From a virus, in IMG/VR virus record IMGVR_UViG_3300028840_005911, positions 1 to 64,000 of that record: 64,000 bases of DNA; one strand, given 5' to 3'. Positions 18,790 to 62,371 of this stretch are shown in pieces. The notes under the pieces are model-generated. The model had not been told where the DNA came from and made no database searches. It worked only from the letters and a program-made list of their open reading frames with translations. Both the position numbers and the translations under genes were made by a program. Position 1 is the stretch's first letter; every line of letters starts with the position of its first letter.

Positions 18790-18798
18790 GACTTCTCC

Positions 18799-22891: not shown

Positions 22892-22894
22892 CCC

Positions 22895-23374: not shown

Positions 23375-23376
23375 GG

Positions 23377-25281: not shown

Positions 25282-25289
25282 GGCTTCTC

Positions 25290-25550
25290 CTACTTCTTGA
25301 TCTCGGGCTTGACCTCGTTACTGCCAGTGATCTGCGGAGCAGGATCCCCAGGAGTAGTTGGGTCGGACTCACCGCTTACCTGCGGAACATACTCAACAGA
25401 GCCGGTAATGACCGGAGACGGGTCTTCGACGACCGTCGATCCATCAATGTCAGGTGTGACTGTCGTAGTTTCGACGATAGCCGGGGTTGGTCCACCAGCT
25501 ACAGGAAGCCCGGGGCCGCACAGGTAACCTCTGTAGACAACACCTATCAC
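25290..25550 (-). CDS. Pro/Thr/Val-rich low-complexity protein
   Basis: An 86-residue protein. After MIGVVYRGYLCGPGLPVAGG it consists of imperfect repeats of the type TPxIVxxTTVTPDIDGS and PxPVITGSVEYVPQVSGE, ending in EVKPEIKK. The repeat unit is about 20 residues with P(A/S)P(Q/V)ITGS as the clearest word (two copies). No membrane helix is evident and there is no lipobox. A flexible, possibly glycosylatable linker between adhesin modules is the best guess. Starts overlap the preceding stop by one base. Confidence 0.65.
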   Translation of the reverse strand: MIGVVYRGYLCGPGLPVAGGPTPAIVETTTVTPDIDGSTVVEDPSPVITGSVEYVPQVSGESDPTTPGDPAPQITGSNEVKPEIKK

Positions 25551-26269: not shown

Positions 26270-26317
26270 ACCATTTCCCCAAAATAATCCCCATTGGGTT
26301 CGTCATTAGAGATCCCT

Positions 26318-26620
26318 CTACACGATCGTGCCAGCTATGTAGCCGAAGTAGATCAGCTCCTCGTACAGGTCGGTCTTGACGGCATTGTAGGTGGCTTGCC
26401 GCCTGGCGACCACCTCATTGTACCGATCGTCGGTCCAGTTGATCCGCTCGATCTTCAAACCAGGCTTCCACACCCCGCCATCGCTCACGCCCCACTCAAG
26501 CCTGATTTTCATCCTGCTGTCATTTGGGTCGATCAGATAGGTTGTCACCTCGGCGTGGGTGTAGAGTTTGCCCGGGTCCATATCCTTCGGGTCGAACGGA
26601 TTGTCGAGCAGTACCGGCAT
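26318..26620 (-). CDS. Fibre-partner family protein, copy 2
   Basis: A 100-residue paralogue of the proteins at 2834, 38633 and 42127. It follows AGGAGGCTGCC and lies ten bases after the YadA-like fibre gene. Family features: PFDPKDMDPG near the start, EWGVSDGGVWKPGLK in the middle, TYNAVKTDLYEELIYFGYIA and GTIV at the end. The EWG(N/V)..GxW and TYxAVKxDLY words are shared with copy 1, so these two are the closest pair. Role as for copy 1: a fibre-specific assembly or attachment partner, by position. Confidence 0.85.
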   Translation of the reverse strand: MPVLLDNPFDPKDMDPGKLYTHAEVTTYLIDPNDSRMKIRLEWGVSDGGVWKPGLKIERINWTDDRYNEVVARRQATYNAVKTDLYEELIYFGYIAGTIV

Positions 26621-26629
26621 GGCAGCCTC

Positions 26630-32743: not shown

Positions 32744-32746
32744 CCA

Positions 32747-33214
32747 CTAACCCGACCTATCTCTTATAGCCTCTAGGCTGTCTGTGCCCTGGTTGTAAGT
32801 CTTGGCGGAGTCCTTGTTCATCGTTCTATCCATTAGACTCCCATTTGTCACTGCCGCAGGGGCCAGGGTGGGCTTCAGGTCTATCTTGTCTACCTGGTTG
32901 GCAATGTAATCGAGCTTGGATTCTATGGATCCGCCCAACGCTTGGGCTATCGCTTCCGACACCCAGATGTCCTTATTGAAATCCGCTAATACCTGGACGT
33001 TCCAGTACCCCTCTGTAGGGGGGGAGTACGACATCCTGTAGTTTCCGGTTGAGCCTATCTCGGTTATGGTAACGGTAAGGGAGGTTGACGCACCATCGAC
33101 ATACACAGATACGGTGAAATCTCCGGCTAGGAGTCCCGTTTTTGTGGTATATCCATCGTCATTGAACACCGGGAACTGGTCGATGATGGTCTCCCCTGGT
33201 GCGATAGAAAACAT
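32747..33214 (-). CDS. Tail-associated protein, N-terminal beta domain plus helical tail
   Basis: I place the start at ATG 33214 (MFSIAPGETI); a GTG one codon upstream (33217) is equally possible, with GGGAGAATGATGA before it. The 155 residues begin with an Ig-like/beta sandwich (FTVSVYVDGASTSLTVTITE, then GNYRMSYSPPTEGYWNVQVL). Residues about 90-115 form a helix (SIESKLDYIANQVDKID). The protein ends with an unstructured stretch. It resembles in outline the 239-residue protein at 25550. A fibre-base or spacer protein is likely; no family recognised. Confidence 0.75.
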   Translation of the reverse strand: MFSIAPGETIIDQFPVFNDDGYTTKTGLLAGDFTVSVYVDGASTSLTVTITEIGSTGNYRMSYSPPTEGYWNVQVLADFNKDIWVSEAIAQALGGSIESKLDYIANQVDKIDLKPTLAPAAVTNGSLMDRTMNKDSAKTYNQGTDSLEAIRDRSG

Positions 33215-33220
33215 CACTCA

Positions 33221-33589
33221 TCATTCTCCCTCGGCGGGCTTCTCCTCTGGTTTCTCTTCCGGCTCCTCTGGGGCCTTGAGTATCTTGTCTCCGAGTACAG
33301 TCTGCTTCAAGATCTTGTGGAGATGCCCGGTGCCCCACCCAAGAAGAATGCCGAGAATAAGCATCCATCCCCATTCTACGCCTGCTGGTCGCAGCCCAGG
33401 AAGCCAGAGAAGGGCCATGCAGAGAAGGATAGGAAGAACAGGCAGGAGCCTGATCATGATCGGCTTCTTGAAGAGACTTGGAAACATCCTCCTAGACACG
33501 GCGATGATAGTCCAGGAAGCCACCATTATCCCCAGGTTCTGAGGAGTGAGTAGTATCTTAGAGAGAGCATTGAGCGCTTGCTGTTCCAT
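33221..33589 (-). CDS. Three-TM membrane protein, holin candidate
   Basis: A 122-residue protein with hydrophobic segments at about 17-33 (NLGIMVASWTIIAV), 45-63 (MIRLLPVLPILLCMALLWLP) and 72-90 (EWGWMLILGILLGWGTGHL). A charged C-terminal tail follows (KAPEEPEEKPEEKPAEGE). Size, three membrane helices and a highly charged tail are the class I holin profile. It is embedded with other small membrane proteins (33742-35766), consistent with a lysis or membrane cassette. No endolysin is recognised nearby, so the assignment is inference. Confidence 0.75.
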   Translation of the reverse strand: MEQQALNALSKILLTPQNLGIMVASWTIIAVSRRMFPSLFKKPIMIRLLPVLPILLCMALLWLPGLRPAGVEWGWMLILGILLGWGTGHLHKILKQTVLGDKILKAPEEPEEKPEEKPAEGE

Positions 33590-33731
33590 GGGTATCTCCT
33601 ATGGTGGGCTTGGTGGACTGCTCGTCGAGATCGTCACCGTTCTTCTCAAGGCGTTCGGCCAGGTCTTTGAGTCGATCAAGGTTAGATTGTGAGCACTCAA
33701 CCAGCTCCTGAACCACATCCTTGCTACGCAT
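33558..33731 (-). CDS. Short helical protein overlapping the holin candidate
   Basis: A 57-residue frame from ATG 33731 to TAA 33558. AGGAGG sits seven bases before the start, one of the best ribosome sites in the block. The product starts MRSKDVVQELVECSQSNLDR and continues as a charged helix (LKDLAERLEKNGDDLDEQ). Its last 32 bases overlap the start of the three-TM protein in another frame, suggesting translational coupling. Without this gene, 33590-33741 would be empty. Function unknown; possibly a regulator of the adjacent membrane protein. Confidence 0.75.
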   Translation of the reverse strand: MRSKDVVQELVECSQSNLDRLKDLAERLEKNGDDLDEQSTKPTIGDTHGTASAQCSL

Positions 33732-33741
33732 GGCGATCCTC

Positions 33742-34176
33742 CTATTCCAGCATGGACTGGATTGAGGTTTCTATCCTGGTGAGCAGGTTGGCCTGCTCCC
33801 TGGTGATCTTATCCACCTCCACGATTGAGTCCTTGAGCTCGTGGATATTCCCCTTCAGCTCCTTGACTGCTTCCTTGAACTCCTTCTTGGTAACACTATC
33901 TTGGGCCACCTTGATACGGAGCTCTTTGAGCTCGTCATCGGTCTTGTCGAGCTTCTCCTCAAATTCCTTGGTCAGCTCAGCCTGTTTGGTAGAGATGCTG
34001 TCCTTGAAGGCGACGAAGTCCTTCACCAAGGACTCGACCTTGGACTTGATGTCTTCGGTCTTGTCAGTGAATTGCTTCAGAGCTACCTTGATGAATATCC
34101 ACAGAAGTGCCGATATCAGACTGATGATCAGCATAAGGATCGATACGAATTCGAGTGATGTCGGCTCCGCTTTCAT
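33742..34176 (-). CDS. One-TM protein with long coiled coil
   Basis: A 144-residue protein. One transmembrane segment lies at about residues 9-32 (EFVSILMLIISLISALLWIF). Then an almost continuous charged coiled coil runs to the end (KQAELTKEFEEKLDKTDDEL, KEFKEAVKELKGNIHELKDS). The architecture repeats in the genes at 34477, 35130 and 2072 of this window, though the sequences are not obviously related. Anchored coiled-coil proteins in phage late regions can be spanins or holin partners. The gene is separated by three bases or fewer from the upstream gene. Confidence 0.8.
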   Translation of the reverse strand: MKAEPTSLEFVSILMLIISLISALLWIFIKVALKQFTDKTEDIKSKVESLVKDFVAFKDSISTKQAELTKEFEEKLDKTDDELKELRIKVAQDSVTKKEFKEAVKELKGNIHELKDSIVEVDKITREQANLLTRIETSIQSMLE

Positions 34177-34178
34177 AA

Positions 34179-34496
34179 CTACTCCCGAGAGAACTCACCC
34201 CCAGGCTCGGGCACAAATGCGATTTGCAAGTTTCCCCAAACCCATTTCACCTTTGGATTTTTACAATGAGGACACACCAACTCCCCAACACGGGAGACAA
34301 CAAAGAATTCCTGATTACACCTTTCACAAGTGCCCATGATCTGGGACTTGGTTACGGCCTTCGGCACTCCCCCAAAGTGCATCGTAAGCTTCATGATATC
34401 TGATGTGATGTCACGTAGCTTCTCGAGGTTCTCGTTCTTGCTCCTGAGAACCATCGCTAGGCTGTCTTCTATGTCTTCAGTCTTCGTCCGTACCAT
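34179..34496 (-). CDS. Zinc-ribbon protein
   Basis: A 105-residue protein. I start at ATG 34496 (MVRTKTEDIE); a frame extending to 34526 would overlap the previous gene further. The N-terminal half is helical and charged (LAMVLRSKNENLEKLRDITS). The C-terminal half holds GTCERCNQEFF, then VCPHCKNPKVKW, a C-x2-C/C-x2-C zinc ribbon spaced by about 17 residues. No membrane segment. It lies among membrane proteins and overlaps the preceding gene by 20 bases. Role unknown. Confidence 0.75.
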   Translation of the reverse strand: MVRTKTEDIEDSLAMVLRSKNENLEKLRDITSDIMKLTMHFGGVPKAVTKSQIMGTCERCNQEFFVVSRVGELVCPHCKNPKVKWVWGNLQIAFVPEPGGEFSRE

Positions 34497-34920
34497 TTTC
34501 CAGCTCGATTCTCTTCGCCTGCTCAAGGATCATCTTCGGGGCAAGCTCCGCAGCCGCCCGGACTATCGAAGACGGGGTGGGGGCTGCCATCCTTTGTATG
34601 TCCTTCAGCTCCTTCTCGATCTCCGGGGTGCTGGCGTTGTCCTCTGCCAGATCCACTAACCTGTTGAGGCGGGCAGTTTGGACCATGTAGTTGTACTGCA
34701 TCTCTTCGAGATCGTCAGCTATCTGCATATTCCTGTTGACTGAGTAGACGGACACAGCCGTGAACACGACTATCATGGCGACCATGGCGATCAGGACCAG
34801 CTTCCTGGACTTGTTGGAGAGCTCGATCTCTTCCAGAACCTGGGCCATAGGCGGGGCGAGCTTGTTCCCGAGGATATCAGCGATCTTGTCCAGCTTCTCG
34901 TTCGTGTTTTCAGGTGGCAT
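34477..34920 (-). CDS. One-TM membrane protein with helical flanks
   Basis: Start at ATG 34920 is favoured because GAGG lies about six bases upstream (AGAGGTTGAAG); MKRLK at 34935 is an alternative. The 147 residues comprise an amphipathic N-terminal helix (LDKIADILGNKLAPPMAQVL) and a transmembrane segment at about 40-60 (KLVLIAMVAMIVVFTAVSVY). A coiled coil (LEEMQYNYMVQTARLNRLVD) and a second helical region follow. The topology suggests a short cytoplasmic and a long extracytoplasmic part or the reverse. Family unknown; part of the membrane cassette. Confidence 0.75.
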   Translation of the reverse strand: MPPENTNEKLDKIADILGNKLAPPMAQVLEEIELSNKSRKLVLIAMVAMIVVFTAVSVYSVNRNMQIADDLEEMQYNYMVQTARLNRLVDLAEDNASTPEIEKELKDIQRMAAPTPSSIVRAAAELAPKMILEQAKRIELENGTDED

Positions 34921-35128
34921 CTTCAACCTCTTCATTTCCGTCCAGTATACTCTGCGCTTCCTTCTGTATCAAAAGAATTTGATTTCTAGTCTCTTCCAGC
35001 AGCTGCTTCCTGGTCCGGATGGTCTTCATTGCCTCCTCATGCATGCTACGCGCTTCCTCGAGGTCCTCCGTGTTCGGTCTCTCGGCCTTTTCTTCCTTCT
35101 TCCCTCTGAGCCACGACAGCAGTCCCAT
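34910..35128 (-). CDS. Small charged coiled-coil protein
   Basis: A 72-residue protein: MGLLSWLRGKKEEKAERPNT, then a continuous helix with heptad-like Leu/Ile (LEEARSMHEEAMKTIRTRKQ, LLEETRNQILLIQKEAQ) and an acidic end. An amphipathic N-terminal MGLLxWLRGKK motif followed by a coiled coil is seen in small proteins encoded beside holins in several phages, from memory of such clusters; this is not proven here. It sits between two one-TM proteins and overlaps the next gene by 11 bases. Confidence 0.75.
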   Translation of the reverse strand: MGLLSWLRGKKEEKAERPNTEDLEEARSMHEEAMKTIRTRKQLLEETRNQILLIQKEAQSILDGNEEVEDAT

Positions 35129-35129
35129 G

Positions 35130-35402
35130 TTAGCTCCTGTTCAGGCTCGCCAGCACAGCCTCTTTGAGTGCGGTCATGGCCGCGCTGAGCTCGCCCAATG
35201 CCTGGTTACTGCTCTGCGAAAACTCCATGAGCTCTTTGCTTAGCTCCTTAGCCTCAGCCACTCTGAGATTCTGGAGATCAATTAGCTGCGACTGCTGCTC
35301 TTTGGTGTGCTTCCACAGGAACCATACTGCAGCGGCCAGTCCGAAGATTACGAGACCCGGGATCCCGTAATCAGAAAGTATCTTCAGTGCCGTCTCTCCC
35401 AT
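35130..35402 (-). CDS. Small one-TM protein with coiled coil, holin/antiholin-like
   Basis: I start at ATG 35402 (MGETALKILS), preceded by GGTGAGGTGG; the longer frame to 35444 overlaps the upstream gene without a ribosome site. The 90 residues have one membrane helix at about 13-30 (GIPGLVIFGLAAAVWFLW). A charged helix (KEQQSQLIDLQNLRVAEAKE) and an amphipathic C terminus (LGELSAAMTALKEAVLASL) follow. This resembles phage proteins often labelled holin or tail accessory. It immediately follows a four-TM protein and precedes a coiled-coil protein. Confidence 0.75.
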   Translation of the reverse strand: MGETALKILSDYGIPGLVIFGLAAAVWFLWKHTKEQQSQLIDLQNLRVAEAKELSKELMEFSQSSNQALGELSAAMTALKEAVLASLNRS

Positions 35403-35409
35403 GTCCACC

Positions 35410-35766
35410 TCACCAGATATTCTGTGGCCACAACAAGTGCCCACATATGACGCCCACCAGGACTATCAGCATTGGGATGGTCCTTGGGATATAACCCCCC
35501 AGATCGAGTATGAGTACCCCTATGCAGAGTACTGCGAGAATAGGGATCGAGATCTTCAAATGATTGGGCTCGTGGTCAAGGGGCCACGACATGTGGCCTA
35601 TGAGGATTCCCAGAAAAAATGGAATGACGGGCCTCTTCCAGAAGTACTCCAGGCTGACGGTGCTAATTGTATCTCTTGGGGTTGGTTCTATGGCGGCAAT
35701 GATGTCCCATACGATGGCCGTCGCTATCACTGACCATATGAGTCCGATTGTGATGTACCTAGTCAT
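35410..35766 (-). CDS. Four-TM integral membrane protein
   Basis: A 118-residue protein with hydrophobic segments at about 5-25 (ITIGLIWSVIATAIVWDIIA), 46-62 (PVIPFFLGILIGHMSW), 71-89 (ISIPILAVLCIGVLILDLG) and 95-112 (RTIPMLIVLVGVICGHLL). Twin GH(M/L)SW / GHLLWP words at the ends of helices 2 and 4 suggest an internal duplication of a two-helix unit. No known family is recognised. As part of the small-membrane-protein group it could take part in lysis or superinfection exclusion; both are guesses. Confidence 0.75.
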   Translation of the reverse strand: MTRYITIGLIWSVIATAIVWDIIAAIEPTPRDTISTVSLEYFWKRPVIPFFLGILIGHMSWPLDHEPNHLKISIPILAVLCIGVLILDLGGYIPRTIPMLIVLVGVICGHLLWPQNIW

Positions 35767-36304
35767 TCTCTTTCCTACTCAGTAAACATACTAGTGATTT
35801 TCTGTTGGGGACCGCAGTCAGACGTCCGTAAGGCTTCAGGTCCTCTTGCGTCCACGCTGACCTGTGCTCCTCGTGGGGGTTTCCGAAGGCTGACTTCTGG
35901 GCAGACGGTCTGATGGGAGTAACCACTAAGATGTTTTTCGAACGGGCTGAGCAAAGCCTGAGGAACCGGGCACCATCCTCCTTCTCGAAATGTTCTATGA
36001 CATCGACCATCAGTATCAGATCGTAATTGTCGAGCTTCTCAATCACCTCCAGGGCGTTACCAAAGAAGACAGCGTCGTAGGCCCAGTCGTAGATAGGATT
36101 GTGGTACTCTTCGAATACCTCTATCCCGTCTATTCTGCGCCTCCAGTCATCATACCTATCCCGGCCGTCCCAGAGTTCCAAGTACTCCCTAGCAAGGACA
36201 CCATACTTACCGAAGCCGACACCGACGTCCAACATAGACATCGGGTTAACTCTCTTGATCAACGAGATGACGTCGTCGATCTGTGTCCACGCACTAGAAG
36301 GCAT
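35759..36304 (-). CDS. Class I SAM-dependent methyltransferase
   Basis: Start at ATG 36304 (MPSSAWTQID), coupled to the preceding stop by TAATG, with AAGGAGAA about ten bases upstream. The 181 residues show the Rossmann-type motifs: DVGVGFGKYG at about 26-35 (SAM-binding loop), an acidic strand end IDGIEVFEE (about 58-66), and DLILMVDVIEHFEKEDG (about 95-111), the post-II region with the IEHF signature. The target cannot be read from the sequence. Because it follows a glycosyltransferase and a small zinc protein in one run, methylation of the added sugar is a reasonable idea. Confidence 0.9.
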   Translation of the reverse strand: MPSSAWTQIDDVISLIKRVNPMSMLDVGVGFGKYGVLAREYLELWDGRDRYDDWRRRIDGIEVFEEYHNPIYDWAYDAVFFGNALEVIEKLDNYDLILMVDVIEHFEKEDGARFLRLCSARSKNILVVTPIRPSAQKSAFGNPHEEHRSAWTQEDLKPYGRLTAVPNRKSLVCLLSRKEND

Positions 36305-36585
36305 TACAGGACATTCTCCTTCAGCCACTTCTTCAGGGCGGGCTTCGGCTTCTCGGCACCCCGCGCAGAGGCGGAGTACTTCCTTCCGTGGCTAGAGCAT
36401 AGGAAGGCCATCCTGGTTGGTACCTTCTCCATGCAACCCTTGGCCTGGCACTTTCCACCCTTCTCGAGACGGTCGATGATCTCCTCCAAAGACTCGCTGG
36501 GCTCCCTAGTGATCTTCTCAGTGGTGTCCGCCTTCTCAGTCTTGGTGGTCTTCTTCACCTTCTTTTTCTTCTTTGTCCCGAACAT
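36304..36585 (-). CDS. Small basic protein with Cys/His zinc-binding site
   Basis: A 93-residue protein with AGGAGACGTCG before ATG. The N terminus is strongly basic (FGTKKKKKVKKTTKTEK), followed by an acidic helix (SLEEIIDRLEKGGK). Then CQAKGCMEKVPTRMAFLCSS followed by H gives C-x4-C-x11-C-x2-H, a probable single zinc site, and the C terminus is basic. The layout is common in small phage nucleic-acid or ribosome-associated proteins. It links the glycosyltransferase gene to the methyltransferase gene with overlaps of one base. Function unknown. Confidence 0.8.
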   Translation of the reverse strand: MFGTKKKKKVKKTTKTEKADTTEKITREPSESLEEIIDRLEKGGKCQAKGCMEKVPTRMAFLCSSHGRKYSASARGAEKPKPALKKWLKENVL

Positions 36586-36594
36586 CGACGTCTC

Positions 36595-38625
36595 CTAGAG
36601 TTTGGATTCCCAAAATTTGATGTTGTTCAGCACCCTATCCTCGTCTGGTCTCTTCTCCAGCACTCTCCTCGCGCAGTTGATAGCGGCCCTGTAGTTACCC
36701 ACATGCGAGTATGCCATAGACAGTTTATCATACCTCTCCCAGTCGTACACAGAGCGGCGTACAAACAAACGAGCCCTCTTTGGGTAGGGCAGGGCACAGC
36801 CAAGCTCGTACCAGAGTACAGCGTCCTCATAACCCTTGCACTTGTAGAAGATGTCCCCCATCAGTACGAACGACTCGGCTCTGTCCCAGCGTTCTTTCAA
36901 TGATCGGTGGACGGCCTTCCTGGCATCGGAATATCTCCGGAGGCTAAGATGGCAAAGAGCCAGATCGAAGCATGCCTGCCACCTCTCTTCGTCCCACCCG
37001 CCTGTGACCAGGTAGTGGTTGTACCAGTGGACGGCCTCCCAGTGCTTGCCCATCTCTCTGTAGGCAATGGCGAGGTAGAACATGGAACGGGTGTCGTTCG
37101 GGTTCTTATCGATCTTCTCCCGGAAGATCTCGATGTTCGTGAACCTCTGCTCTGATCTGGCGGTCCTGATCTCTGTCTTCTTTATGCTCTTGTCGTCGAC
37201 TGACATGATGTTGCCGGACCAGGCTAATCTGCCTCTCTTCAGGGTAGAGGAATCCACGATATTGTGTCTCGGGTTCACCCACCTGACGTGGGACCTCATC
37301 AACCTGTCCGACTTCCAAGCCGATGCCACGTTGCCGTACTTGTCAGGGGTCATCCCGCTCGCAATCTCTACCACATCGTGATTCTTGGCGAGCTCGAGTA
37401 TCCTTGGCAGCTCCTCTGGGTGGTCCAGGTACTCATCGTCGTCCAGTACGAGAGCCCAGTCACAGGTGTTGGCGGAGTGTACCAGATTTCTCACATAGCT
37501 GAAGTCCCATGGGTCGGGGGCATCGAACTGCTGAACCTCCCCGTCGAGATTGAGCTCCTCGAGCAGACCCTTCGCGAAGTCTTCTGTGTCTCCAGTATCT
37601 CTGCTATCTACCCAAATGAACGCCGCGTCGATGTGTTTGCTACAAGATCTGATGGCCCGCTCTACCCCCTTCGGGCAATCCTTCGTAACCATGCAAACGG
37701 CTATGGATTCAAGCTCGGGCTTCTCTTCTACAGGGTGCGGCTTCGCGTTCCCAATGATGGTCTCCGCCAAGACTGGATACCTGTCCTTTGCATCATACCT
37801 ACTAGATACCCAGTTCCTGGCCTCTTCTGGGGACATCGGGCTATCGACCAGAGCCCTCAGGTCATCTATTGTTCTCCACGTGTGGGGCCACAACTCCTTT
37901 GCCCCCATCCAATTGTGTACCAATGGTGACAAGCCGCAGGCCATGCCCTCTGCCACAGCCAGGTGGAAACTCTCCAGCATACTGGTGCTGATGATGAACC
38001 CGAACTTCTGGTCCCTCATCACTTCTTCTGGGTTGTTGGTGCGGCCGTGTATGTGAAGGTTTGGGATGTCGATGTTGTCGAAGTAGATCTTCAACCGTGG
38101 GCGGGTTATTCCCCCGTAAGCATGGATCTCTCTGTTTGGGAAAGCCCCGGCCACTACACCAAGTAGCTGTGCCCCCTTCCTGAAGTTCATATCCCCCATG
38201 TACAGGATATCCGATCCAGCCGGAGACAGGGCGAAGCGGTCGAGGTCTATACCGTGAGGTGCGATCTTCACCTTGTCGGGGTCAATGTTCAGCATCTCAC
38301 GGCACAGCTCACGATAATGTGCGCTCGGAACAATGAGGGTATCCACAAATCTCCAGTCCACCTTGCCGGCGAAATGCTCGTGGAGCTCGTAAGCGTGCAG
38401 CCTTACTGTCACCCTCGGTCGGTCTTTAAAGCTCCCAAGGCGATCTACCCCCTCTGCGGTGTTGAGGTCTGCCCAATCGAAATGTACAACATCGAAGTCT
38501 GTCCGAGACATCGGCCAACTGGTGAACTTCACTACCTCGTGCCCGAGATCGGTCAAGGCCTTCTCTACCTGGTAGGAGAAGCCTTGACTACTCATACAGA
38601 ATCTATCTACCAGCGCTACACGCAT
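36595..38625 (-). CDS. Fused glycosyltransferase: GT4-like, GT2-like and TPR domains
   Basis: The start is ATG 38625 (MRVALVDRF); a GTG one codon earlier is possible. Residues about 1-290 are a GT-B, GT4-type domain: KIAPHGIDLDRF (121-132), LYMGDMNFRKG (142-152) and the E-x7-E motif within MLESFHLAVAEGMACGLSPL (E219 and E227, counting from the GTG). Residues about 305-480 are a GT-A, GT2-like domain: AVCMVTKD, FIWVDSRDTGDTE, NLVHSANTCDWALVLDDDEY with the metal-binding DDDE at 396-399. Residues about 500-677 are TPR-type helical repeats. Expected activity: transfer of one or two sugars from nucleotide-sugars. TPRs suggest a protein acceptor. The gene sits between two fibre groups. Confidence 0.93.
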   Translation of the reverse strand: MRVALVDRFCMSSQGFSYQVEKALTDLGHEVVKFTSWPMSRTDFDVVHFDWADLNTAEGVDRLGSFKDRPRVTVRLHAYELHEHFAGKVDWRFVDTLIVPSAHYRELCREMLNIDPDKVKIAPHGIDLDRFALSPAGSDILYMGDMNFRKGAQLLGVVAGAFPNREIHAYGGITRPRLKIYFDNIDIPNLHIHGRTNNPEEVMRDQKFGFIISTSMLESFHLAVAEGMACGLSPLVHNWMGAKELWPHTWRTIDDLRALVDSPMSPEEARNWVSSRYDAKDRYPVLAETIIGNAKPHPVEEKPELESIAVCMVTKDCPKGVERAIRSCSKHIDAAFIWVDSRDTGDTEDFAKGLLEELNLDGEVQQFDAPDPWDFSYVRNLVHSANTCDWALVLDDDEYLDHPEELPRILELAKNHDVVEIASGMTPDKYGNVASAWKSDRLMRSHVRWVNPRHNIVDSSTLKRGRLAWSGNIMSVDDKSIKKTEIRTARSEQRFTNIEIFREKIDKNPNDTRSMFYLAIAYREMGKHWEAVHWYNHYLVTGGWDEERWQACFDLALCHLSLRRYSDARKAVHRSLKERWDRAESFVLMGDIFYKCKGYEDAVLWYELGCALPYPKRARLFVRRSVYDWERYDKLSMAYSHVGNYRAAINCARRVLEKRPDEDRVLNNIKFWESKL

Positions 38626-42549: not shown

Positions 42550-50639
<8,090 letters not shown>

Positions 50640-50640
<1 letters not shown>

Positions 50641-50867
50641 TACTCAAATCCTATGTAGGCATCTATCTCAACCTGTACCAGGGCGGAGGCCTCCTGAAGA
50701 TTGACCGATCCGGTCTCCGATACCCCACGTCCTTGAAGGACAGCCCGGAGGAACTTGGTCTCGTTGTCCAGCCTGTTCGACTCCTCTTCGTAGTACTGGG
50801 CCATCGCCTGCTTGAGGTTCTGCAGGTTGGTATCCCGCTCGTCTTTGGTCGGTGGTACCTTGGCCAT
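50640..50867 (-). CDS. Small helical protein, unknown
   Basis: A 75-residue protein starting at ATG 50867, the base before the end of the sigma-factor gene. It is predicted helical: DERDTNLQNLKQAMAQYYEE, ESNRLDNETKFLRAVLQGRG, then a C-terminal helix LQEASALVQVEIDAYIGFE. It has no tag of the DELEKIA type. Its length and dense spacing suggest an assembly or structural helper between the internal-protein group and the fibre group. Family not recognised. Confidence 0.75.
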
Positions 50868-51626
50868 CTACATATACTTCTTCGCCTTGTTGGCGATTGA
50901 TTTCCTAAGTTTCGACACGGTAGAGGGGCTCACCCCCATCCGCTGTGCTATCTGACTGGGCTTCAGCTGGGGCTTTCCTCCGTACCCAATCGTGTACTCA
51001 TATACCAGGAGCTCTTTCGGTGTGAGCTCGTACCGAAGGATATTCAGCTTCTCCGCCTCTGGAGAAGGGGCTATAGAGGATGGGTCCGACTCCCACGCAG
51101 AAGACGTCAAAGTCCTCCTTCTCTCGTTCTCTAGACGCGCCACCTCAGCCTCGGACCACTTCAGATACTCTGCGAGCTCCTGAGTGTTAGGCTCCCTACC
51201 GAGCTGCTCATCGAGGATGGACTTCGCGTTGTCGAACTCGCCTACCTTGTAGAACCTGGTCTCCGACATCCTGACCGGGTTGCGGTAGGTAGCCATCCAC
51301 CTGTTGGCCTGCTTGAGGTTGGTGTCCACCCATGTTCCTAGTGCGGCTCCCCTGTTGGGATCGTAGGTCTCTACGGCCTTCAGGAACTGCTTGTTGAACT
51401 CGGCATGGATGGCGGCCGGCGGGATGTCGACGTCAACGGAGGATACCCATCGGTTGGCTCGAGAGCGCAGAAGGCCACGGAAGTTCTGGAGTAGTGGTCT
51501 CAGGTCGTCTGGTTGTCTGCCGCCCTGGTCCCACTGCTTCCAGAGATCGTAGTCCGCCTGCTGGCGGGGCTTCGAGAAGTCCGCAGCGGTCTTCTCGACA
51601 TCCTCTGTGACGAAGAGATCGAACAT
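50868..51626 (-). CDS. Sigma-70 family RNA polymerase sigma factor in the virion gene block
   Basis: A 252-residue protein with the domains of a group 3-type sigma factor. Region 2 covers about 70-120 (FNKQFLKAVETYDPNRGAAL, then GTWVDTNLKQANRWMATYRN), with the region 2.3/2.4-like Trp/Tyr-rich helix. A region 3-like segment spans about 125-170 (LDEQLGREPNTQELAEYLKW). Region 4 spans about 195-252 (LTPKELLVYEYTIGYGGKPQ), with the HTH LKPSQIAQRMGVSPSTVSKL. Region 1.1 is absent. The N terminus MFDLFVTEDVEKTAADF resembles the DELEKIA tag of the four neighbouring proteins. It would direct host polymerase to phage promoters. Its position suggests late synthesis and possibly virion delivery. Confidence 0.93.
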   Translation of the reverse strand: MFDLFVTEDVEKTAADFSKPRQQADYDLWKQWDQGGRQPDDLRPLLQNFRGLLRSRANRWVSSVDVDIPPAAIHAEFNKQFLKAVETYDPNRGAALGTWVDTNLKQANRWMATYRNPVRMSETRFYKVGEFDNAKSILDEQLGREPNTQELAEYLKWSEAEVARLENERRRTLTSSAWESDPSSIAPSPEAEKLNILRYELTPKELLVYEYTIGYGGKPQLKPSQIAQRMGVSPSTVSKLRKSIANKAKKYM

Positions 51627-51628
51627 GT

Positions 51629-52129
51629 CTACTTGAACTTCTGCTCAAACTTGTCACGGAACGCCTTGTTGTCGAACAACCGACCCAAATAGTCGGTATG
51701 CTTCTTCACGAATCCTCGAGTCACCTCCTCGGTGGGCTCTGGATCTTCATCAACCTGCGGCTCTTCCTTGCCGTCGCCCTGAGGCATTTCGTTGATGTTC
51801 GTCATCTCCTCAGCCTGCTTCTTGAGGTACTGTACCAACGGGTCTTCACTGTAGTTCATGACTCCTCCGATCTTTGGCAGCGAGCCTTTGTTTGATGGGA
51901 AACTGGGTGTCAGATCCTGAACGGTCGGCCCCTTCGGGTTGAGCTTCCCTACGGTCGGTGCCGGGCCAACCTCGGCGGCCTTCCTGGACTGGTTCAGCAG
52001 CCCCTTGGCCAAGGACTTGCTGTCCTGGGTAGGGAAGTTGGTGTGCATCCCCATGAATCCCTTCCTGAGGTCCTGCCCTCCCATGGAAGCTATCTTCTCG
52101 AGCTCGTCCAGTATAGCATTGGTGTCCAT
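51629..52129 (-). CDS. Tagged small protein, unknown (DELEKIA family)
   Basis: A 166-residue protein beginning MDTNAILDELEKIASMGGQD. The DELEKIAS segment matches the tags of the three preceding small proteins. The rest is Pro/Lys-rich and probably flexible (AEVGPAPTVGKLNPKGPTVQ), then QYLKKQAEEMTNINE and an acidic linker (EEPQVDEDPEPTEEV). It ends with a helix (HTDYLGRLFDNKAFRDKFEQ). No enzymatic motif is seen. A virion-internal or scaffold-associated protein is inferred from the shared tag and neighbours. Confidence 0.85.
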   Translation of the reverse strand: MDTNAILDELEKIASMGGQDLRKGFMGMHTNFPTQDSKSLAKGLLNQSRKAAEVGPAPTVGKLNPKGPTVQDLTPSFPSNKGSLPKIGGVMNYSEDPLVQYLKKQAEEMTNINEMPQGDGKEEPQVDEDPEPTEEVTRGFVKKHTDYLGRLFDNKAFRDKFEQKFK

Positions 52130-52130
52130 C

Positions 52131-52331
52131 TTAATGTCCTATGATGACTTCGGGCTCATCTTCCGGAAGGAACGGAGGATAGTAAGTGCTCGGCTCCTCG
52201 TCCTGGGTCAGCCTGGACGAGTACGGCTTACCGTCCCTCTTGTAGTCCTTCCCCTCCTTCTCCCGCTTCTCCTTCTCAGAGATTTGGGAGAGCTCATCGA
52301 AGAATGCCCCGGTCTGGTCTTTGAAGTTCAT
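52131..52331 (-). CDS. Tagged small charged protein (DELEKIA family)
   Basis: A 66-residue protein: MNFKDQTGAFFDELSQISEK contains the family tag in variant form (AFFDELSQIS). It is followed by a highly charged segment (EKREKEGKDYKRDGKPYSSR) and an acidic Pro/Tyr-rich tail (STYYPPFLPEDEPEVIIGH). Too short and low in complexity for an enzyme; likely disordered beyond the tag helix. Its start overlaps the preceding gene's stop by four bases. Confidence 0.8.
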   Translation of the reverse strand: MNFKDQTGAFFDELSQISEKEKREKEGKDYKRDGKPYSSRLTQDEEPSTYYPPFLPEDEPEVIIGH

Positions 52332-52780
52332 ACCTGCGTCTTCCCCTCTTTGAAGGCCTTGATATGCTTACAGTCGTACCCCGGAGTCACGCTACCCTTG
52401 AACTTCCAGTCGTTGCAGGTACATCCCAGTCGGCCCGGAAGTTGAACGATCTCGTACCGCTTCCCCTTACCAACTGAGCTCGTGACCTTACCCAGGGTCT
52501 TACCCTTGGCCAGATTATGCAAAGACTCCGCATGGAGAATCAGCTTCTTGTCCGCCTCCGGGTGCTTCTTGAGCATGTCTAAGAACGGTTTGGATGTGAC
52601 GTGCTTGGCGAACTTGTCCCACTTCTCTTTGCCTGCCTTCGGGGAGAAGTGATACTCAACCCTTCTGGTAGACTTTGCCTTCTCACCCCGAAAGATATCC
52701 GCGATGCCTCTGAAGACATCCTTGAGGCCCGATATCTTCTCCAGCTCGTCGCTGAAGGCATGTAGGGTTATCTCGTTCAC
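52328..52780 (-). CDS. Tagged protein with SWIM-type zinc finger (DELEKIA family)
   Basis: A 150-residue protein, start at GTG 52780 overlapping the previous stop (GTGA). The tag is HAFSDELEKISG at residues 8-19. The C terminus has GRLGCTCNDWKFKGSVTPGY then DCKHIKAF: C120-x-C122 and C137-x-H139, the CxC...CxH signature of SWIM domains, which bind DNA or proteins. The middle is basic and helical (VEYHFSPKAGKEKWDKFAKH, LDMLKKHPEADKKLILHAES). A DNA-associated internal protein is plausible. Confidence 0.88.
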   Translation of the reverse strand: MNEITLHAFSDELEKISGLKDVFRGIADIFRGEKAKSTRRVEYHFSPKAGKEKWDKFAKHVTSKPFLDMLKKHPEADKKLILHAESLHNLAKGKTLGKVTSSVGKGKRYEIVQLPGRLGCTCNDWKFKGSVTPGYDCKHIKAFKEGKTQV

Positions 52781-53022
52781 ATCCCGCTCTGTTTCCTGAT
52801 TCGCCTTCCCAGAAGCCAGTCCTGAAATGCCTGCTCACCTGTGATCGCGGTGGCCCCGCCGGCACCGAGGAGAGCGGGAACCTTCCAGTGCTTTGCGATG
52901 GCTCCTCCAGGAATCTTCCCGGCAATCTCCTTGGTGGCCCTCAGGGCTGCTCCCACTGGTGCTTGGGCAATCTTCTCGAGCTCGTCAAAGAAGGCAAGCT
53001 TCTCATGTACCGAGTAATCCAC
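52777..53022 (-). CDS. Tagged small protein with hydrophobic centre (DELEKIA family)
   Basis: An 81-residue protein starting at GTG 53022 after GGAGGTCAGCC. The start overlaps the hub gene's 3' end by 20 bases. The N-terminal tag is KLAFFDELEKIAQA at residues 8-21. A basic Gly/Ala-rich part follows (VGAALRATKEIAGKIPGGAI), then a moderately hydrophobic segment (VPALLGAGGATAITG), and the end is basic (WLLGRRIRKQSG). It could interact with membrane or nucleic acid. It is the first of the tag-bearing genes after the tail hub gene. Confidence 0.82.
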   Translation of the reverse strand: MDYSVHEKLAFFDELEKIAQAPVGAALRATKEIAGKIPGGAIAKHWKVPALLGAGGATAITGEQAFQDWLLGRRIRKQSGM

Positions 53023-56000
53023 GGCTGACCTCCAACTCTCTTACGTAGTTGAGGACCCTTGCCCGTGATCTTCCACGGGGGTCCAAATGCTGAGGTATCT
53101 CAACGTTTTCCTGCCTTCTCCCTCGTGGGATGATCGGCTTCAAGGTGCCTTCTGGTAGGTCGCCGAGGGCATTGTCCCCAGCCACCATCCTACCATCATC
53201 GGCTAACCTCACATTAGTATTGTAGTCTCCGAAGGCCCTAGAATGGAACCCTTCTACCATAGTCTCAGTGTCAGCCACCTCTCCCCCCGAGAACTCAAGG
53301 TTCTGACTCCCAAGGACCTCTACCAAGTTGGCTATCGGGCGGGTGGTGAACTGTTGGATGAACTCGTGGACGTCGAGGTCCCTCTCCTTGTAGATGCTGT
53401 ACACAGCCGCCAGGCCATCTATGGCCTTCTCGAGGGTATCAACATCTACGTCCAGGACGGTGACCGTGGTCCCGTCATCAGTCTGTACCTCCTGCTCGTT
53501 GACTCCTGCATAGATGTTCTTGGTCTTGTCGTAGTTGCTCCGGATGCTGGAATCGTACCCTTCGGTGTTGACCTGGTCCGCTAGATTGTCCTCGTACAGC
53601 GACTCGTCATCGGTAATGGCGCGGGTGCCTAAGAGAGGGAGGTAGACCTTCTCACTGATGTTCTCTTTCCACCAGACATCCGAATACCAGCCGGGCATCA
53701 GCGCGTCTTCGATGGCAATGTTGGACCTGACAAACTCTCCGGTACCGATGAAGTACTCGACAGTTACGGTGAGACTGTCCGGGACACTGATATAGTTCTT
53801 GTCGGGGTCTGTGCTGATGCCATCGAATTCCTCAGAGCTTACACCGATGTTTTTTGCGCTGATACGGGATACCCTGGTTGTGCTCTGAGAGGCTTCCACT
53901 GAAGATACCTTGCCACTGATCTTCCCGACCCTGATCTTGATGCCCGTATTCAGGCTGTCCGTGAGGTACATGAGGAGCAGATTCTCGAGCTGCTTTCTGC
54001 GATTTCCTCCTGCCCTAAGATTCCTGGACATCTCGACCGGGTACATGACGATCTTCCTTCGTCGCTTCCCCACCTTCTCTCTGGTCAGTACACCGAGGAA
54101 CTCGTCGTCTACTCCTCTGTGAGTTCTGCAGTGAGTGTAGTTGACCGATGTCAAACCACCTGACTGGCTGAGATTGTGGACCAAGGAGTGTACCTTACCG
54201 ATGAACTGAGTAGGTCTCAGCTCTCTGCCGAGTTCTATCTCCATCGGCTTCCTGACTTCAGTCGGGAGCACAGGCTTGTCAATGATGAGCCCTGGGAATC
54301 CGATCACCATGTTCGGATTGAAGTAGGTCTGGGCGCTCATCGTTCTCGAGGCCCACCTGTGGAGATAGAACTGGAAGTGGGCCAGACGCTGAATATATCC
54401 GACCTTCCCTGCCTGGAAAAATTGGTCTTCCCGTCCACGCTCCTTGGCCGCCTTGGTGGCCCATCTGTGACCGCTGGTAACCCACTCGAACTTCGGCACG
54501 ATACCGGAATGCGTCTCGTGGGGAAGGATCACCCTGTGGCCATAGTTCATCGTAGCGTACAGTGTCTTTCCCTGCGTATCCCTGATGCTGGGAGCGAAGT
54601 ACTTCCTTGCCAGGAGCTTGGACCCCCTACCTCCGGCTATGAACCCGAGCCCGCTGTGGCAACTCAGCCTAGTGACCTCCCGCATGAAGTTCCGGCTGTA
54701 GCTGAAATTGTATATCTGGTCCGGGAACAACACATTGCACCGTGGTGGGGCAACGAAGAATGTCTCAGGCAACACAAGCTGGTTGTACATGTGCGTGCCA
54801 ACCTCCACACTGGTTGACACTCTTCTCCTATTTCTACCGGATGACACCTCGTTGGAGATGTCGTTGATAGCCTTTATAGCCCCACCTTCGTACCCATTAC
54901 TTGTCTTCGCTCCACCGATCTTCTCATTTATGGCCGCTGCGGACGTTAGGATTTCTGAAACAGGACTAGCCGGTATAGCCCCTATGGCCGCATCAATATA
55001 CCCCTTGGCCTCCTCAATCTTGCTCTTGACTCTGGATACGTCCGATGTTCTTACAGATCGCAAGTTCTCATTGGCCACATCCACAGCTATGCTTGCAAAA
55101 TTGAGTTGTCTCTCCACACCTTTGAACGTCTCTCCGGGGTCGTCGAGATTCACCTTCTCGTTCATAGTGTAGGCCGCCTCAAGATTGTCGTAGGCATCCC
55201 CAAGGTTCTTAATGACTATCTTCCCTGCTGCAGTGTCGCTGAAAATGGCTGTGGTTGTGCTGACTCTCTTAGACCTCGGAGGGGCCAAGTAAGGAGCCGG
55301 GTTCGGGTAGATATCGTGGAAGATGTAACGGCCGACGTGCCTGAGAATGTCCCTGAAAGAGATGAGGTTGCCCATAGAGGACATTCCAGACCTGATCCAA
55401 TCCCTGAAGGCCTTGGCTGCATAGATCCTCGTTGAGGTCTTATCCTCCTCAACCGCACCCAACATCCCCAGGATGTTGTACCGGAGCTCGGCCAGGGTGA
55501 AGAGCTCGTTCACTCCAGAGTATCCCCGTCCAGATACCGGCCTGACTCCGCCCACCGCCTCGAGCAGGTGGATGAGGCCTCCGAGGAGACCCTTGGTCTG
55601 GCTATATTCCTGACTCTTCGGCCGGGAATTGAGCAGCTGAGAGATGACCCACTTATGCCCGCCGGCGATGTTGTCGAACAGGCCAGATCCTGCCCCCACA
55701 AAGTTCTGAGACCTGTCAGTGAGAGCATCGCCGCCGACCGAATAGTCCGCATACCACTGGTAGCAGGTGTCCCAGTAGATAGACCAGTCCATACACTGCA
55801 GGACGAGCTGGCGTTCATTTGCACCCCTGACGTATTGGTAGCCTATCACCTCACCGCCGAAGATGAGCTTGTAGCTTTCGTCTGCCGCTTCTATCCTATT
55901 CAACACGTTGCGGTCCTGAATCTGATTATTCTCGAGCTGCTTAAAGAAGGTCAGATCCTGCTCGGAGAGCGTGTTGTCCAGGGCAAACAGGTGAACCAGG

Positions 56001-56152
56001 GTCCTGGGTAGCATCTCAGTGGCTGTGTCGGTCGGGATGATCTGGATGGCAGATGTCACCGGCTGGCTAGGGGCAATATTGATCTGTGCCGATATTGCCG
56101 GCACCTCTATACCTTCCATGAACAGCCTGAGGCCGAGTGGTGCTGCTTTCAT
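53003..56152 (-). CDS. Baseplate hub protein (gp27/gpD-like)
   Basis: A 1049-residue protein. Early beta modules carry FGGEVIGYQYVRGANERQLV (about 98-117) followed by LQCMDW, the look of the first hub domain, in which a G-x-V-x-x-(Y) strand precedes a LxCxD strand. A large helical insert follows (about 180-430). FPDQIYNFSYSRNFMREVTR (about 476-495) and later YIQRLAHFQFYLHRWASRTM, AQTYFNPNMVIGFPGLIIDK (about 586-628) match the ring domain of hub proteins (R-x-x, then FNPxxVxGxPGxV). It would form the tail-tip hub that carries the spike. The gene follows the 638-residue tail protein, overlapping it by four bases. Confidence 0.85.
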   Translation of the reverse strand: MKAAPLGLRLFMEGIEVPAISAQINIAPSQPVTSAIQIIPTDTATEMLPRTLVHLFALDNTLSEQDLTFFKQLENNQIQDRNVLNRIEAADESYKLIFGGEVIGYQYVRGANERQLVLQCMDWSIYWDTCYQWYADYSVGGDALTDRSQNFVGAGSGLFDNIAGGHKWVISQLLNSRPKSQEYSQTKGLLGGLIHLLEAVGGVRPVSGRGYSGVNELFTLAELRYNILGMLGAVEEDKTSTRIYAAKAFRDWIRSGMSSMGNLISFRDILRHVGRYIFHDIYPNPAPYLAPPRSKRVSTTTAIFSDTAAGKIVIKNLGDAYDNLEAAYTMNEKVNLDDPGETFKGVERQLNFASIAVDVANENLRSVRTSDVSRVKSKIEEAKGYIDAAIGAIPASPVSEILTSAAAINEKIGGAKTSNGYEGGAIKAINDISNEVSSGRNRRRVSTSVEVGTHMYNQLVLPETFFVAPPRCNVLFPDQIYNFSYSRNFMREVTRLSCHSGLGFIAGGRGSKLLARKYFAPSIRDTQGKTLYATMNYGHRVILPHETHSGIVPKFEWVTSGHRWATKAAKERGREDQFFQAGKVGYIQRLAHFQFYLHRWASRTMSAQTYFNPNMVIGFPGLIIDKPVLPTEVRKPMEIELGRELRPTQFIGKVHSLVHNLSQSGGLTSVNYTHCRTHRGVDDEFLGVLTREKVGKRRRKIVMYPVEMSRNLRAGGNRRKQLENLLLMYLTDSLNTGIKIRVGKISGKVSSVEASQSTTRVSRISAKNIGVSSEEFDGISTDPDKNYISVPDSLTVTVEYFIGTGEFVRSNIAIEDALMPGWYSDVWWKENISEKVYLPLLGTRAITDDESLYEDNLADQVNTEGYDSSIRSNYDKTKNIYAGVNEQEVQTDDGTTVTVLDVDVDTLEKAIDGLAAVYSIYKERDLDVHEFIQQFTTRPIANLVEVLGSQNLEFSGGEVADTETMVEGFHSRAFGDYNTNVRLADDGRMVAGDNALGDLPEGTLKPIIPRGRRQENVEIPQHLDPRGRSRARVLNYVRELEVSRGLLGT

Positions 56153-61200: not shown

Positions 61201-61901
61201 ATCCCGGAGCGTTGGGCAACGTCTGTGAGGTTAATTGCCTCTTTCATGGAGAGCATCACGTCCTCACTGGCAAACTCCCTGAGGATCCCAGTGATCTCCC
61301 TAATCTGTCCCCGGGACATCTGCCCGCCCGGCCTAACCCCGGCCTGCCCATAGAACGGCCCCTGCCGACCCATGATGTCACCGACCTGAGAGACATTTTG
61401 CGCACCTTGGTAGATAGATTCTCCGATTGTCTGGATACCCATCCCAACAGCGGCGTAAGGGAGAGCAGTCATGGCTGCCGCCCCGATGCCCCCACCAAGG
61501 GCCCCGAGCCCTCCCATGAGTCCTCGCTGAGCAAAAGCCCCACCAATGTGTCCAATCGTGCCAAGAACCCCCGCCCCTCGGGCAGCTCCGCTACCGTAGC
61601 CAAAGGCTCGAGCTCCCATGGTCCACGGATCTAAGATACCGGCTGGGCCTCCCATGAGACCCCCGGCAATGGACGCCGCACCCGCCAGCCCGGGCAGGGC
61701 CATTCCAACACCACCCACCATAGCCCCGGCCATCCCTGCGGAGGGCTCGGACTGGGGGAATGGGTTCTGCATCTGGGAGACCTGCATCTGTGGGCCGGTA
61801 CCGTACATGTTGCTGATCTGCTGAGCATGACCAGCATAGTTGGAAAACATTACATGTTGTCCGCCAACGGCCCCAGAGATCTGATAGGAGGTCATTACCA
61901 T
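58278..61901 (-). CDS. Tail tape measure-like protein
   Basis: A 1207-residue protein rich in Gly, Ala, Met and Gln. Residues about 55-165 are a long glycine/alanine hydrophobic segment (AGAMVGGVGMALPGLAGAAS, GLGALGGGIGAAAMTALPYA). Further on come amphipathic helices with Met/Gln repeats (MGMAGAMRAAGPAAPQLMGA) and coiled-coil stretches (RIRDQRLRRQRQAIEDAARD). Another hydrophobic part lies near residue 840-860 (TAARTIASLSMAAFAPHV). Length, hydrophobicity and its place before tail-tip and hub genes fit a tape measure. The residue count would imply a tail near 180 nm at ~0.15 nm per residue, if true. An internal virion protein is an alternative. Start at ATG 61901, with AGAGGAG upstream; a second ATG is two codons in. 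Confidence 0.85.
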   Translation of the reverse strand: MVMTSYQISGAVGGQHVMFSNYAGHAQQISNMYGTGPQMQVSQMQNPFPQSEPSAGMAGAMVGGVGMALPGLAGAASIAGGLMGGPAGILDPWTMGARAFGYGSGAARGAGVLGTIGHIGGAFAQRGLMGGLGALGGGIGAAAMTALPYAAVGMGIQTIGESIYQGAQNVSQVGDIMGRQGPFYGQAGVRPGGQMSRGQIREITGILREFASEDVMLSMKEAINLTDVAQRSGMLSGVMNAQQFKTRFREIINQVRNISDVMGSTIEEAMPLFGQAQRMGLWRANDIMGMAGAMRAAGPAAPQLMGAMQAGATMAHRMGGPLGAGAMMGQEAFMNIQAAGQAGVLTSRDIREMTGGVGGAAGQQMVAQQLTGTAAQFAQSGMGRLMVAGLGEFEEGRFTGKIDPRAMQRFTAGQLDIGQLQARGRSRIGTRGGAASFAVQQGQIGQRMMAEGGMESVGQAVRSVMERAGYGEAGEDIQNLFIQKLMGVEAREADIWRRLGDEMPRIRDQRLRRQRQAIEDAARDLDRKKYRSFEGMKRALEHAWEQTLAPIEDVASTAVTRIGEDMDDLVNQFFGRTGGTVVTQGERMEIMRGGRGGMMGAAEMASMAQRIGGGTRGTPIGERFVRSYSSEGAGLFWGTARFTGGLAASALGMENADPYSRLGALGGFEAGGVSRRAQEPTLERLGYNISREEAQPKLNKLSLAMKKFMSNTTNARRLAKLREESRGNRGAYAAMLNEELMKDPEYAEAARSLMKAGGKSVFSAENQMDMLALAQKESGWDNSFLSANLQGWAQDAGLGALDLQDTAKVLEYKNTLADEAAEMLKEPPTVVGTAARTIASLSMAAFAPHVAWTAGQGIYEIVTGKAGVGEALTKAFTGAYGVTGAIDREMFDEDMVSSKDLLNALENSDWGHSLSQWIRDRADENSEGGKKFIEAVFKKNDPKARKIYNQIAALKARNPAALSKLASKTNLVDDIKRYQTTMEAQEERKTLAGKELAALTKRGAGPLSTRLTTKYRQLLEAYTEDPTGERTQDRAQALAAEISGDTEAMDALRRTGGAVAGHTVGMAMLEGLSSTSGMSAQQLKKRMREISRTLGYDVLRSSSSETQKMIKEAMEGGLTFTELRRIRGALGREVGARGPVATPGGREAQNEKLLGLLGSYAESHQKFVWAVGASVAAMQGKGEDITDKLKELQTEVTSMKSKGYGQN

Positions 61902-61934
61902 TGTGAGGCGGGCTCCTCTGGTAGTTCTTTATGA

Positions 61935-61963
61935 AGTCTACCTGAAAAATCGAGCCAAAACAA
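61935..61963 (-). promoter_or_regulatory. Weak candidate promoter before the tape measure gene
   Basis: On the minus strand TTGTTT (61963-61958), 17 bases, TAGACT (61940-61935). Each box matches the consensus only partly (3/6 and 4/6). It lies in the 61902-62110 gap, where the operon might be re-initiated. Confidence 0.25.
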
Positions 61964-61985
61964 TGGTGTAGAGAGGAAGGTAAAA

Positions 61986-62120
61986 ATGAAGGGTCTTTTC
62001 GTTACAAGAATAGTGAGTCAAAGGAGTCCTGTGATGCCGAGGAGCGCCAGAAATGGAAGCAAGACCCATCGCAGGAGAGCTCGAGGTCCGGACCACTCCG
62101 GAGATTCATTTTACTCCTGA
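61986..62120 (+). CDS. Possible 44-residue basic protein (plus strand)
   Basis: ATG 61986 is preceded by AGAGGAAGG at about five bases, and the frame runs to TGA 62120, overlapping the 3' end of the minus-strand zinc protein by ten bases. The product (MKGLFVTRIVSQRSPVMPRS..., then KTHRRARGPDHSGDS) is basic and has no known motif. It occupies most of a 209-base gap (61902-62110) that otherwise holds no gene. The excellent ribosome site is the only support; no promoter is obvious. Confidence 0.3.
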   Translation: MKGLFVTRIVSQRSPVMPRSARNGSKTHRRRARGPDHSGDSFYS

Positions 62121-62371
62121 GCCTTCTGCTTGTCCGGTGGCGGGGTGACCTTCTTGGACTTCTTCCCGGGCGTGTCCTTCTTCACGATGCGGTCACGGTA
62201 GTTCTTGATGGTCTTCTCGCAGGTAGAACAGAGATCCTCGTACCGGATTGTCTCCCCGAGGAACTTCATTTCCAGAGCGTAGCTGGCCTTCGTATCCTCC
62301 TTCGGGACCGGCATGACGGTAACCTTCTTGCACCTGTCGCACTGTACCTCGAGTACTTTCCTTGTAGCCAT
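62111..62371 (-). CDS. Small zinc-ribbon-like protein
   Basis: An 86-residue protein coupled to the previous stop (TAATG). VQCDRCKKVTVMPVPKEDTK (about 9-28) and EDLCSTCEKTIKNYRDRIVK (about 45-64) give two C-x2-C pairs about 33 residues apart, a typical small zinc ribbon. Between them is a strand pair (SYALEMKFLGETIRY). The C terminus is Lys/Pro-rich and flexible (PGKKSKKVTPPPDKQKAQ). It may bind nucleic acid or act as an assembly helper. Second gene after the promoter at 62620. Confidence 0.85.
   Translation of the reverse strand: MATRKVLEVQCDRCKKVTVMPVPKEDTKASYALEMKFLGETIRYEDLCSTCEKTIKNYRDRIVKKDTPGKKSKKVTPPPDKQKAQE

Follow-up and report, generated by a model that had tools for sequence, protein, structure and literature searches.

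Why should four neighbouring phage proteins with unrelated bodies begin with the same short segment? The question arises on the minus strand of the 64,000-nucleotide stretch analysed here (the window), which belongs to an IMG/VR virus record of 192,446 bp (G000). Four consecutive ORFs carry, 3–8 residues past the start, a short N-terminal segment with the consensus A-F-F-D-E-L-E-K-I-A (the tag). Protein 1 (52777–53022; 81 aa, hydrophobic/basic; LAFFDELEKIAQ) has a GTG start with GGAGGT ahead of it and bears AFFDELEKIA at 52966–52995; protein 2 (52328–52780; 150 aa; HAFSDELEKISG) bears AFSDELEKIS at 52730–52759; protein 3 (52131–52331; 66 aa, charged and probably disordered; GAFFDELSQISE) bears AFFDELSQIS, which lacks a K-x-A site, at 52278–52307; and protein 4 (51629–52129; 166 aa, Pro/acidic; NAILDELEKIAS) bears AILDELEKIA at 52088–52117. 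A profile search located all four tags at 24–37 bits (37.0 for protein 1 and 25.3 for protein 4), and the genes overlap or nearly abut in an operon-like arrangement. The first-pass annotation had described four consecutive proteins with a common start and unrelated bodies, and both points agree with the ORFs, the profile scores and a sequence comparison of the four. Its SWIM zinc finger in protein 2 stands as a visible SWIM-like CxC...CxH pattern, but the Pfam score of 13.4 bits lies below the cut-off of 19.6, and none of the four proteins has a match above cut-off in the family libraries.

The arrangement is not confined to this window. Protein 2 has a homologue in contig G019 (153113–153703, E 1e-13), and tagged ORFs with starts matching those of proteins 2 and 3 occur in L164 (RAFSDELCKIAG and KSFFDELSNIAD, respectively). 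These counterparts adjoin a sigma gene, and the arrangement is thus conserved. The same profile, run over the rest of the 192-kb genome as the first-pass annotation had proposed, found five more tagged ORFs, all on the minus strand: 131167–131373, 139073–139396, 147774–148037 (in the head block), 156936–157421 and a weaker match at 174330–175130. Upstream of the four window genes lies an untagged, conserved late protein (cluster 33; 53003–56152, minus strand) with weak similarity to gp8, a ‘cell wall hydrolase, structural’ protein of Salmonella phage Arash, which together with Vibrio phages D69, D148 and D181 makes up the nearest isolates. The window also encodes a late protein of 1540 aa (45350–49972), probably a tail fibre, in which long collagen-like GPTG/GATG repeats flank a middle domain.

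The tag recurs in viral contigs and is nearly absent from bacterial and archaeal genomes. Searching IMG/VR for codons that spell FDELEKIA yielded 34 matches, spread over 30 stretches of viral contigs; 27 of them (including a few duplicates between near-identical contigs) lie within 12 residues of a start codon, on diverse proteins. In 21 records (G000 and 20 with FDELEKIA), the DELxKI codon pattern matched 83 times and its reverse once, so the tag is not a chance occurrence. In prokaryotic (bacterial and archaeal) genomes totalling 257 Gb there are three matches to FFDELEKIA, one of them internal and two in a single Nostoc frame of 22 codons, none convincing as a tag. The reversed-pattern control and this near-absence from prokaryotes rule out chance or a common domain start as the origin of the similarity. 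No published mention of DELEKIA was found in the literature searched, nor any tag-bearing phage isolate in these searches.

An iterated 12-residue profile, run on G000 and 16 further contigs, identified 119 tagged proteins whose bodies fall into 96 unrelated clusters, with up to 18 carriers per genome. Core genes are common to all 17 contigs, and the tag-bearing phages are one lineage of large, mostly uncultured phages. The tag starts 2–10 residues past the initiator Met, some gene starts being uncertain since genes were called by a simple ORF procedure. E6 is kept in all 119 tags, at a profile threshold that favours this residue; L7 and K9 are each present in 114, F3 in 101 and D5 in 100. Synonymous codons differ among the DELxKI matches within single genomes, and conservation of residues despite codon change over 96 bodies requires selection on the peptide. 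One protein of G018 (61890–62318) has a segment resembling the tag (GAFSDELKKIYAAAQ) at its extreme C-terminus.

Tagged genes belong to the late part of the genome. The majority (late) strand holds 116 of the 119, compared with 63% of all ORFs of at least 120 aa, and the nearest conserved gene is late for 116 as well. An early gene is nearest in only three cases, which gives little room for the concern, voiced in the first-pass annotation, that the tag might simply begin many proteins that are not packaged. PHROGs recognised the terminase, portal (weakly), sheath, protease and a 2063-aa fused RNA polymerase. The head block of G000 runs terminase, cluster 25, cluster 17, protease, the small tagged protein at 147774–148037, the scaffold-like cluster 20 and capsid protein. 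In G000 and several relatives, a small tagged gene separates the protease gene from the scaffold-like gene, near the capsid gene; in most contigs with a readable head block, a small tagged protein has these three genes as its neighbours. Tagged cargo in relatives includes an SNF2 helicase, inorganic pyrophosphatase (InPase), GNAT plus glyoxalase, DnaJ, NUDIX and membrane-like bodies, one of them with a glycine zipper. Neighbouring tagged genes form arrays in G008 (33231–37562 and 47523–53265), G012 (18388–27588) and G010 (31693–34443) that carry the genome-specific starts MNSFE/MNHFE, MFT and MNFQ, respectively, and resemble cassettes of exchangeable cargo.

The second half of the tag, LEKIA, fits a broader motif, phi-x-K-[T/I/L/V]-A-[S/A/E/G/Q]. 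When gapped triplets were ranked without supervision, K-x-A-S, [LMF]-x-K-x-A and E-K-x-A came out on top in head-block proteins (z ~27), and control proteins showed no excess of K-x-A-type triplets. When counted as [LMFIVWY]-x-K-[TILVMQ]-A-[SAGEDQNT], the motif occurs 219 times in untagged head-block proteins versus 12.9 expected (~17-fold), where the clusters counted had been selected in part with an earlier form of the motif, clusters 2 and 29 most of all. Tail (24 versus 16 expected) and early (17 versus 9.4 expected) proteins contain it at close to chance frequency. Because homologues inflate summed counts, we recounted genome by genome: G000 alone has 16 versus 0.9 expected (P 4e-15), and the excess is significant in each other genome except G009, which contributes one protein. 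The head blocks of Arash and D69, chosen by gene order alone and free of motif-selection bias, contain 18 versus 0.97 expected and 10 versus 1.06 expected, with tails at 1 versus 2.5 in Arash and at chance in D69.

At the head-block sites, P3 is strictly K (22-fold, other residues at most ~2-fold), P1 is mainly A and P1′ is S, E, Q, A, G or N, and the sites fall in Pro/Gly-rich linkers, often many per protein. Given these strict preferences, the motif looks like a protease recognition site, and we read it as the candidate cleavage site of the prohead protease. The glutamyl (x-x-E) specificity of T4 and phiKZ would not account for it, the enriched motif having K at P3 and A at P1; E at P1 after phi-x-K-x is not enriched (24 versus 19.0 expected). 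Among the tags, 75 of 119 have the phi-x-K-x-A core and only 48 the full head-block motif including the P1′ preference, so that many tags may dock uncut. The bodies behind the tags show no enrichment (7 versus 6.0 expected), and the tag site is therefore usually the only K-x-A site of its protein. Arash gp100 (L142:8195–8971), which is listed in the Arash virion, starts MEKQAS, with a K-x-A site at its very N-terminus that is perhaps a minimal leader.

The head block also encodes a protease of suitable type. In an AlphaFold2 model of residues 1–300 of the G000 protein (cluster 0; mean pLDDT 71.7), the best PDB match is T4 gp21 (three 5jbl chains, E 1.9e-4 to 2.7e-4, prob 1.00), the matches after 5jbl not being significant, and the head-block protease is accordingly predicted to have a gp21-type fold. 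With this fold and the K-x-A motif, both the head-maturation protease and the site motif for which the first-pass annotation had suggested a search are now represented by candidates, and we found no description of a K-x-A specificity for a gp21-fold protease. H119 and S175, which we assume to be catalytic, are invariant in 14 sequences. The N-terminal stretch is otherwise variable and contains an invariant K30-x-A32, as self-processing would predict. In G000, head protease and InPase form one polypeptide (148907–151714), with the InPase at residues 448–566 (8e-35); putative K-x-A sites flank the InPase (426 on one side, 571 and 577 on the other) and none lies inside it. G005 and G009 encode the InPase on its own, with the tag, and thus one cargo domain appears in two ways, either as part of the head protease chain or as a tagged protein. 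Intein/LAGLIDADG insertions occur in several core virion genes, namely the portal genes of G000 (171004–174333) and G005 (L063:13691–18565), the RNA polymerase gene of G018 (L046:9765–17507) and the protease gene of G013 (L107:11321–14275), where the insertion comes after SMG-C at the conserved serine.

The gene that follows the four tagged genes in the window (50868–51626, minus strand) encodes a sigma-70-family factor of 252 aa (MFDLFVTEDVEKTAAD), with a Sigma70_r3 match above the Pfam cut-off (8.5e-7), indicating sigma-70 domains, and a match to phrog_351 (7.6e-14). The first-pass annotation had fitted its start to the tag. This part of its proposal fails: the tag profile scores −10.9 bits, which rules the protein out as a tag carrier, and only the K-x-A end is shared. 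The leader is of another class, short and ending in the K-x-A site VEKTAA (51582–51599, minus strand), and leader and site are kept in most orthologues. A single-sequence search returned no relatives of the sigma factor and an eight-member alignment was too diverse, but a four-member alignment found 20, and in most further orthologues a short variable leader ends in K-x-A and is followed by a conserved body. The leader M-N-P-[VL]-[ED]-[ED]-F-L is shared by the sigma factor and head-block cluster 17 alone; in a slightly looser form it occurs at 8 of 49,074 protein starts, all sigma or cluster 17. This restriction suggests that the sigma factor probably enters the head with a leader of its own.

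Evidence on virion content comes from published work on Arash. The list of proteins detected by LC-MS in its virions includes the RNA polymerase parts gp206 (128 unique peptides) and gp216, sigma gp10 (24 unique peptides), helicase gp217 (38), gp220, gp221, gp222 and capsid protein gp226 (PMC10585845, Table 2). Peptide counts matter here, because the list of 116 proteins also contains ribonucleotide reductase and primase, which are likely contaminants. The tagged SNF2 helicase of G018 is homologous to gp217 (E 4e-96), the sigma cluster to gp10 (best E 4e-29), the RNA polymerase to gp206/gp216, the protease to gp222 and clusters 25 and 17 to gp220 and gp221. Homologues of polymerase, sigma factor and helicase have thus been found by others in virion preparations of a related isolate, one in which the full tag is absent, the sigma factor has no leader and the SNF2 homologue, like that of G019, is untagged. 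D69 has a short form of the tag (MDNVDTLLEKIAA) in the gene directly upstream of the sheath region. In G000 the polymerase is a fused beta-beta′ protein of 2063 aa encoded among the head genes (163845–170036), with long homologues in 14 other contigs; in Arash it is split in two, and both parts are virion-listed. It carries neither the tag nor an excess of K-x-A sites, which rules it out as a tag carrier or cleavage substrate, and other routes into the head must therefore exist.

By analogy with known leaders, the tag most likely puts its carriers into the phage head for delivery to the next bacterium. The capsid-targeting role suggested in the first-pass annotation is supported by late-module linkage, the tagged gene in the head block, the gp21-like protease, the match to the head-protein motif and the Arash virion homologues of the helicase and sigma factor. 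We consider it probable that AFFDELEKIA is a portable capsid-targeting leader ending in or near a candidate processing site, with which unrelated late cargo would be packaged, in many cases trimmed, and ejected. In such a scheme, an amphipathic N-terminal helix presenting F3, F4, the invariant E6 and L7 would anchor unrelated late proteins to a component of the prohead interior. The gp21-like protease would then cut at the end of the tag (L-E-K-I-A), in many cases freeing the mature cargo before DNA packaging, and the cargo (pyrophosphatase, helicase, GNAT, NUDIX, DnaJ, SWIM-like and membrane-like proteins) could be ejected with the DNA. The sigma factor, brought in by its own K-x-A-ended leader, may work with the virion-packaged fused beta-beta′ RNA polymerase.

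It is conceivable, though on balance unlikely, that the tag only binds a head component and is never cut, its K-x-A likeness reflecting a common docking surface and K-x-A sites elsewhere acting as docking motifs too. The presence of E6 in 119/119 tags is more conservation than a cleavage site alone needs, and 34 of the 119 tags have G or S at P1, with F/V/I/L frequent at P1′, a pattern that differs from that of the head-block sites. The strict P3, P1 and P1′ of those sites, repeated many times per protein in Pro/Gly-rich linkers, are nevertheless protease-like, and sites of this kind flank the InPase and include the invariant K-x-A of the protease pro-region. A destination in the tail tube or baseplate appears improbable. 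The head block itself contains a conserved tagged gene, the matching motif is enriched in proteins of that block and not in those of the tail, and the helicase and InPase are typical of cargo that resides within heads or is injected; against this, the four window genes adjoin the tail-side gene of cluster 33 and another tagged gene is directly upstream of sheath.

Readings that assign the tag no part in packaging fare less well. Recruitment of a chaperonin or of the cell membrane would suit a short amphipathic helix, as which the tag of protein 1 was modelled (residues 5–19; single-sequence AlphaFold2, low confidence, pLDDT 63.6), as well as the several membrane-like bodies and the glycine zipper. 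We think this very improbable, however, because the tag is restricted to late genes, occurs in the head block, matches the head-protein motif and is also found on soluble enzymes. Finally, a functionless gene fusion or recent duplication of the start region would explain why leaders are alike within a genome (MNFQ in G010, MNSFE/MNHFE in G008 and MFT in G012), but is hardly credible when codons differ while residues are kept, E6, L7 and K9 each being retained in at least 95% of tags in front of 96 unrelated kinds of body.

Returning to the capsid-targeting leader, we see about even odds for a broader, lineage-wide system in which AFFDELEKIA and a second address, MNPVEEFL...K-x-A, load exchangeable effectors together with the phage's own transcription machinery and a gp21-fold protease trims them before ejection. 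If the tag is indeed such a leader, it would make a readable list of early-delivered proteins, probably rich in anti-defence functions, out of genes now called ‘hypothetical’ in a large lineage of uncultured phages. It would also predict the specificity of the protease and a packaged, sigma-containing transcription system, and would place beside that of T4 a well-defined capsid-targeting code useful for loading proteins into phage heads.

By analogy, the tag would work like the capsid-targeting sequence (CTS) of T4, a likeness of functional class for which we claim no homology. The CTS of IPI–III, which we take to differ in sequence from the tag consensus, is likewise a short N-terminal leader on unrelated proteins; its targeting part is followed by a protease-site part, as we propose for the tag, and the tag-bearing phages, like T4, have a protease of gp21 type, as judged by predicted fold. 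The T4 site is glutamyl, whereas a K-x-A site is predicted here, and the tag is found on many more proteins, as many as 18 in one genome. In the 10-residue T4 leader, targeting depends on residues 4 and 7 and processing on residues 8 and 10, and a change at the cut residue stops cutting but not targeting (PMC9026906). This separation of targeting from cutting fits the tags with G or S at P1, which may dock uncut.

In phiKZ and SPN3US, many head proteins have multiple protease sites, and virion RNA polymerase and injected proteins are known (PMC10052503, PMC9026906), features that the tag-bearing phages would share. Their cleavage motif ends in Glu (A/S-x-E), in contrast to the predicted K-x-A of the tag-bearing phages, and their propeptides are not described as one common short tag. 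Similar cargo, enzymes predicted to be packaged and injected, is described for polyvalent proteins, which have many domains per chain (Iyer et al. 2017, PMC5512222); the tagged proteins that we examined are, by contrast, mostly short or have at most one known domain behind the single tag, the exception being the GNAT plus glyoxalase protein of G006, and they do not fall into that class. In phage P1, an N-terminal stretch of at most 30 residues sends the antirestriction protein DarB, and a reporter, into the head (PMC9024508). The P1 Dar proteins have no N-terminal consensus (PMC9024508), whereas in the phages described here one consensus is found on about 100 proteins.
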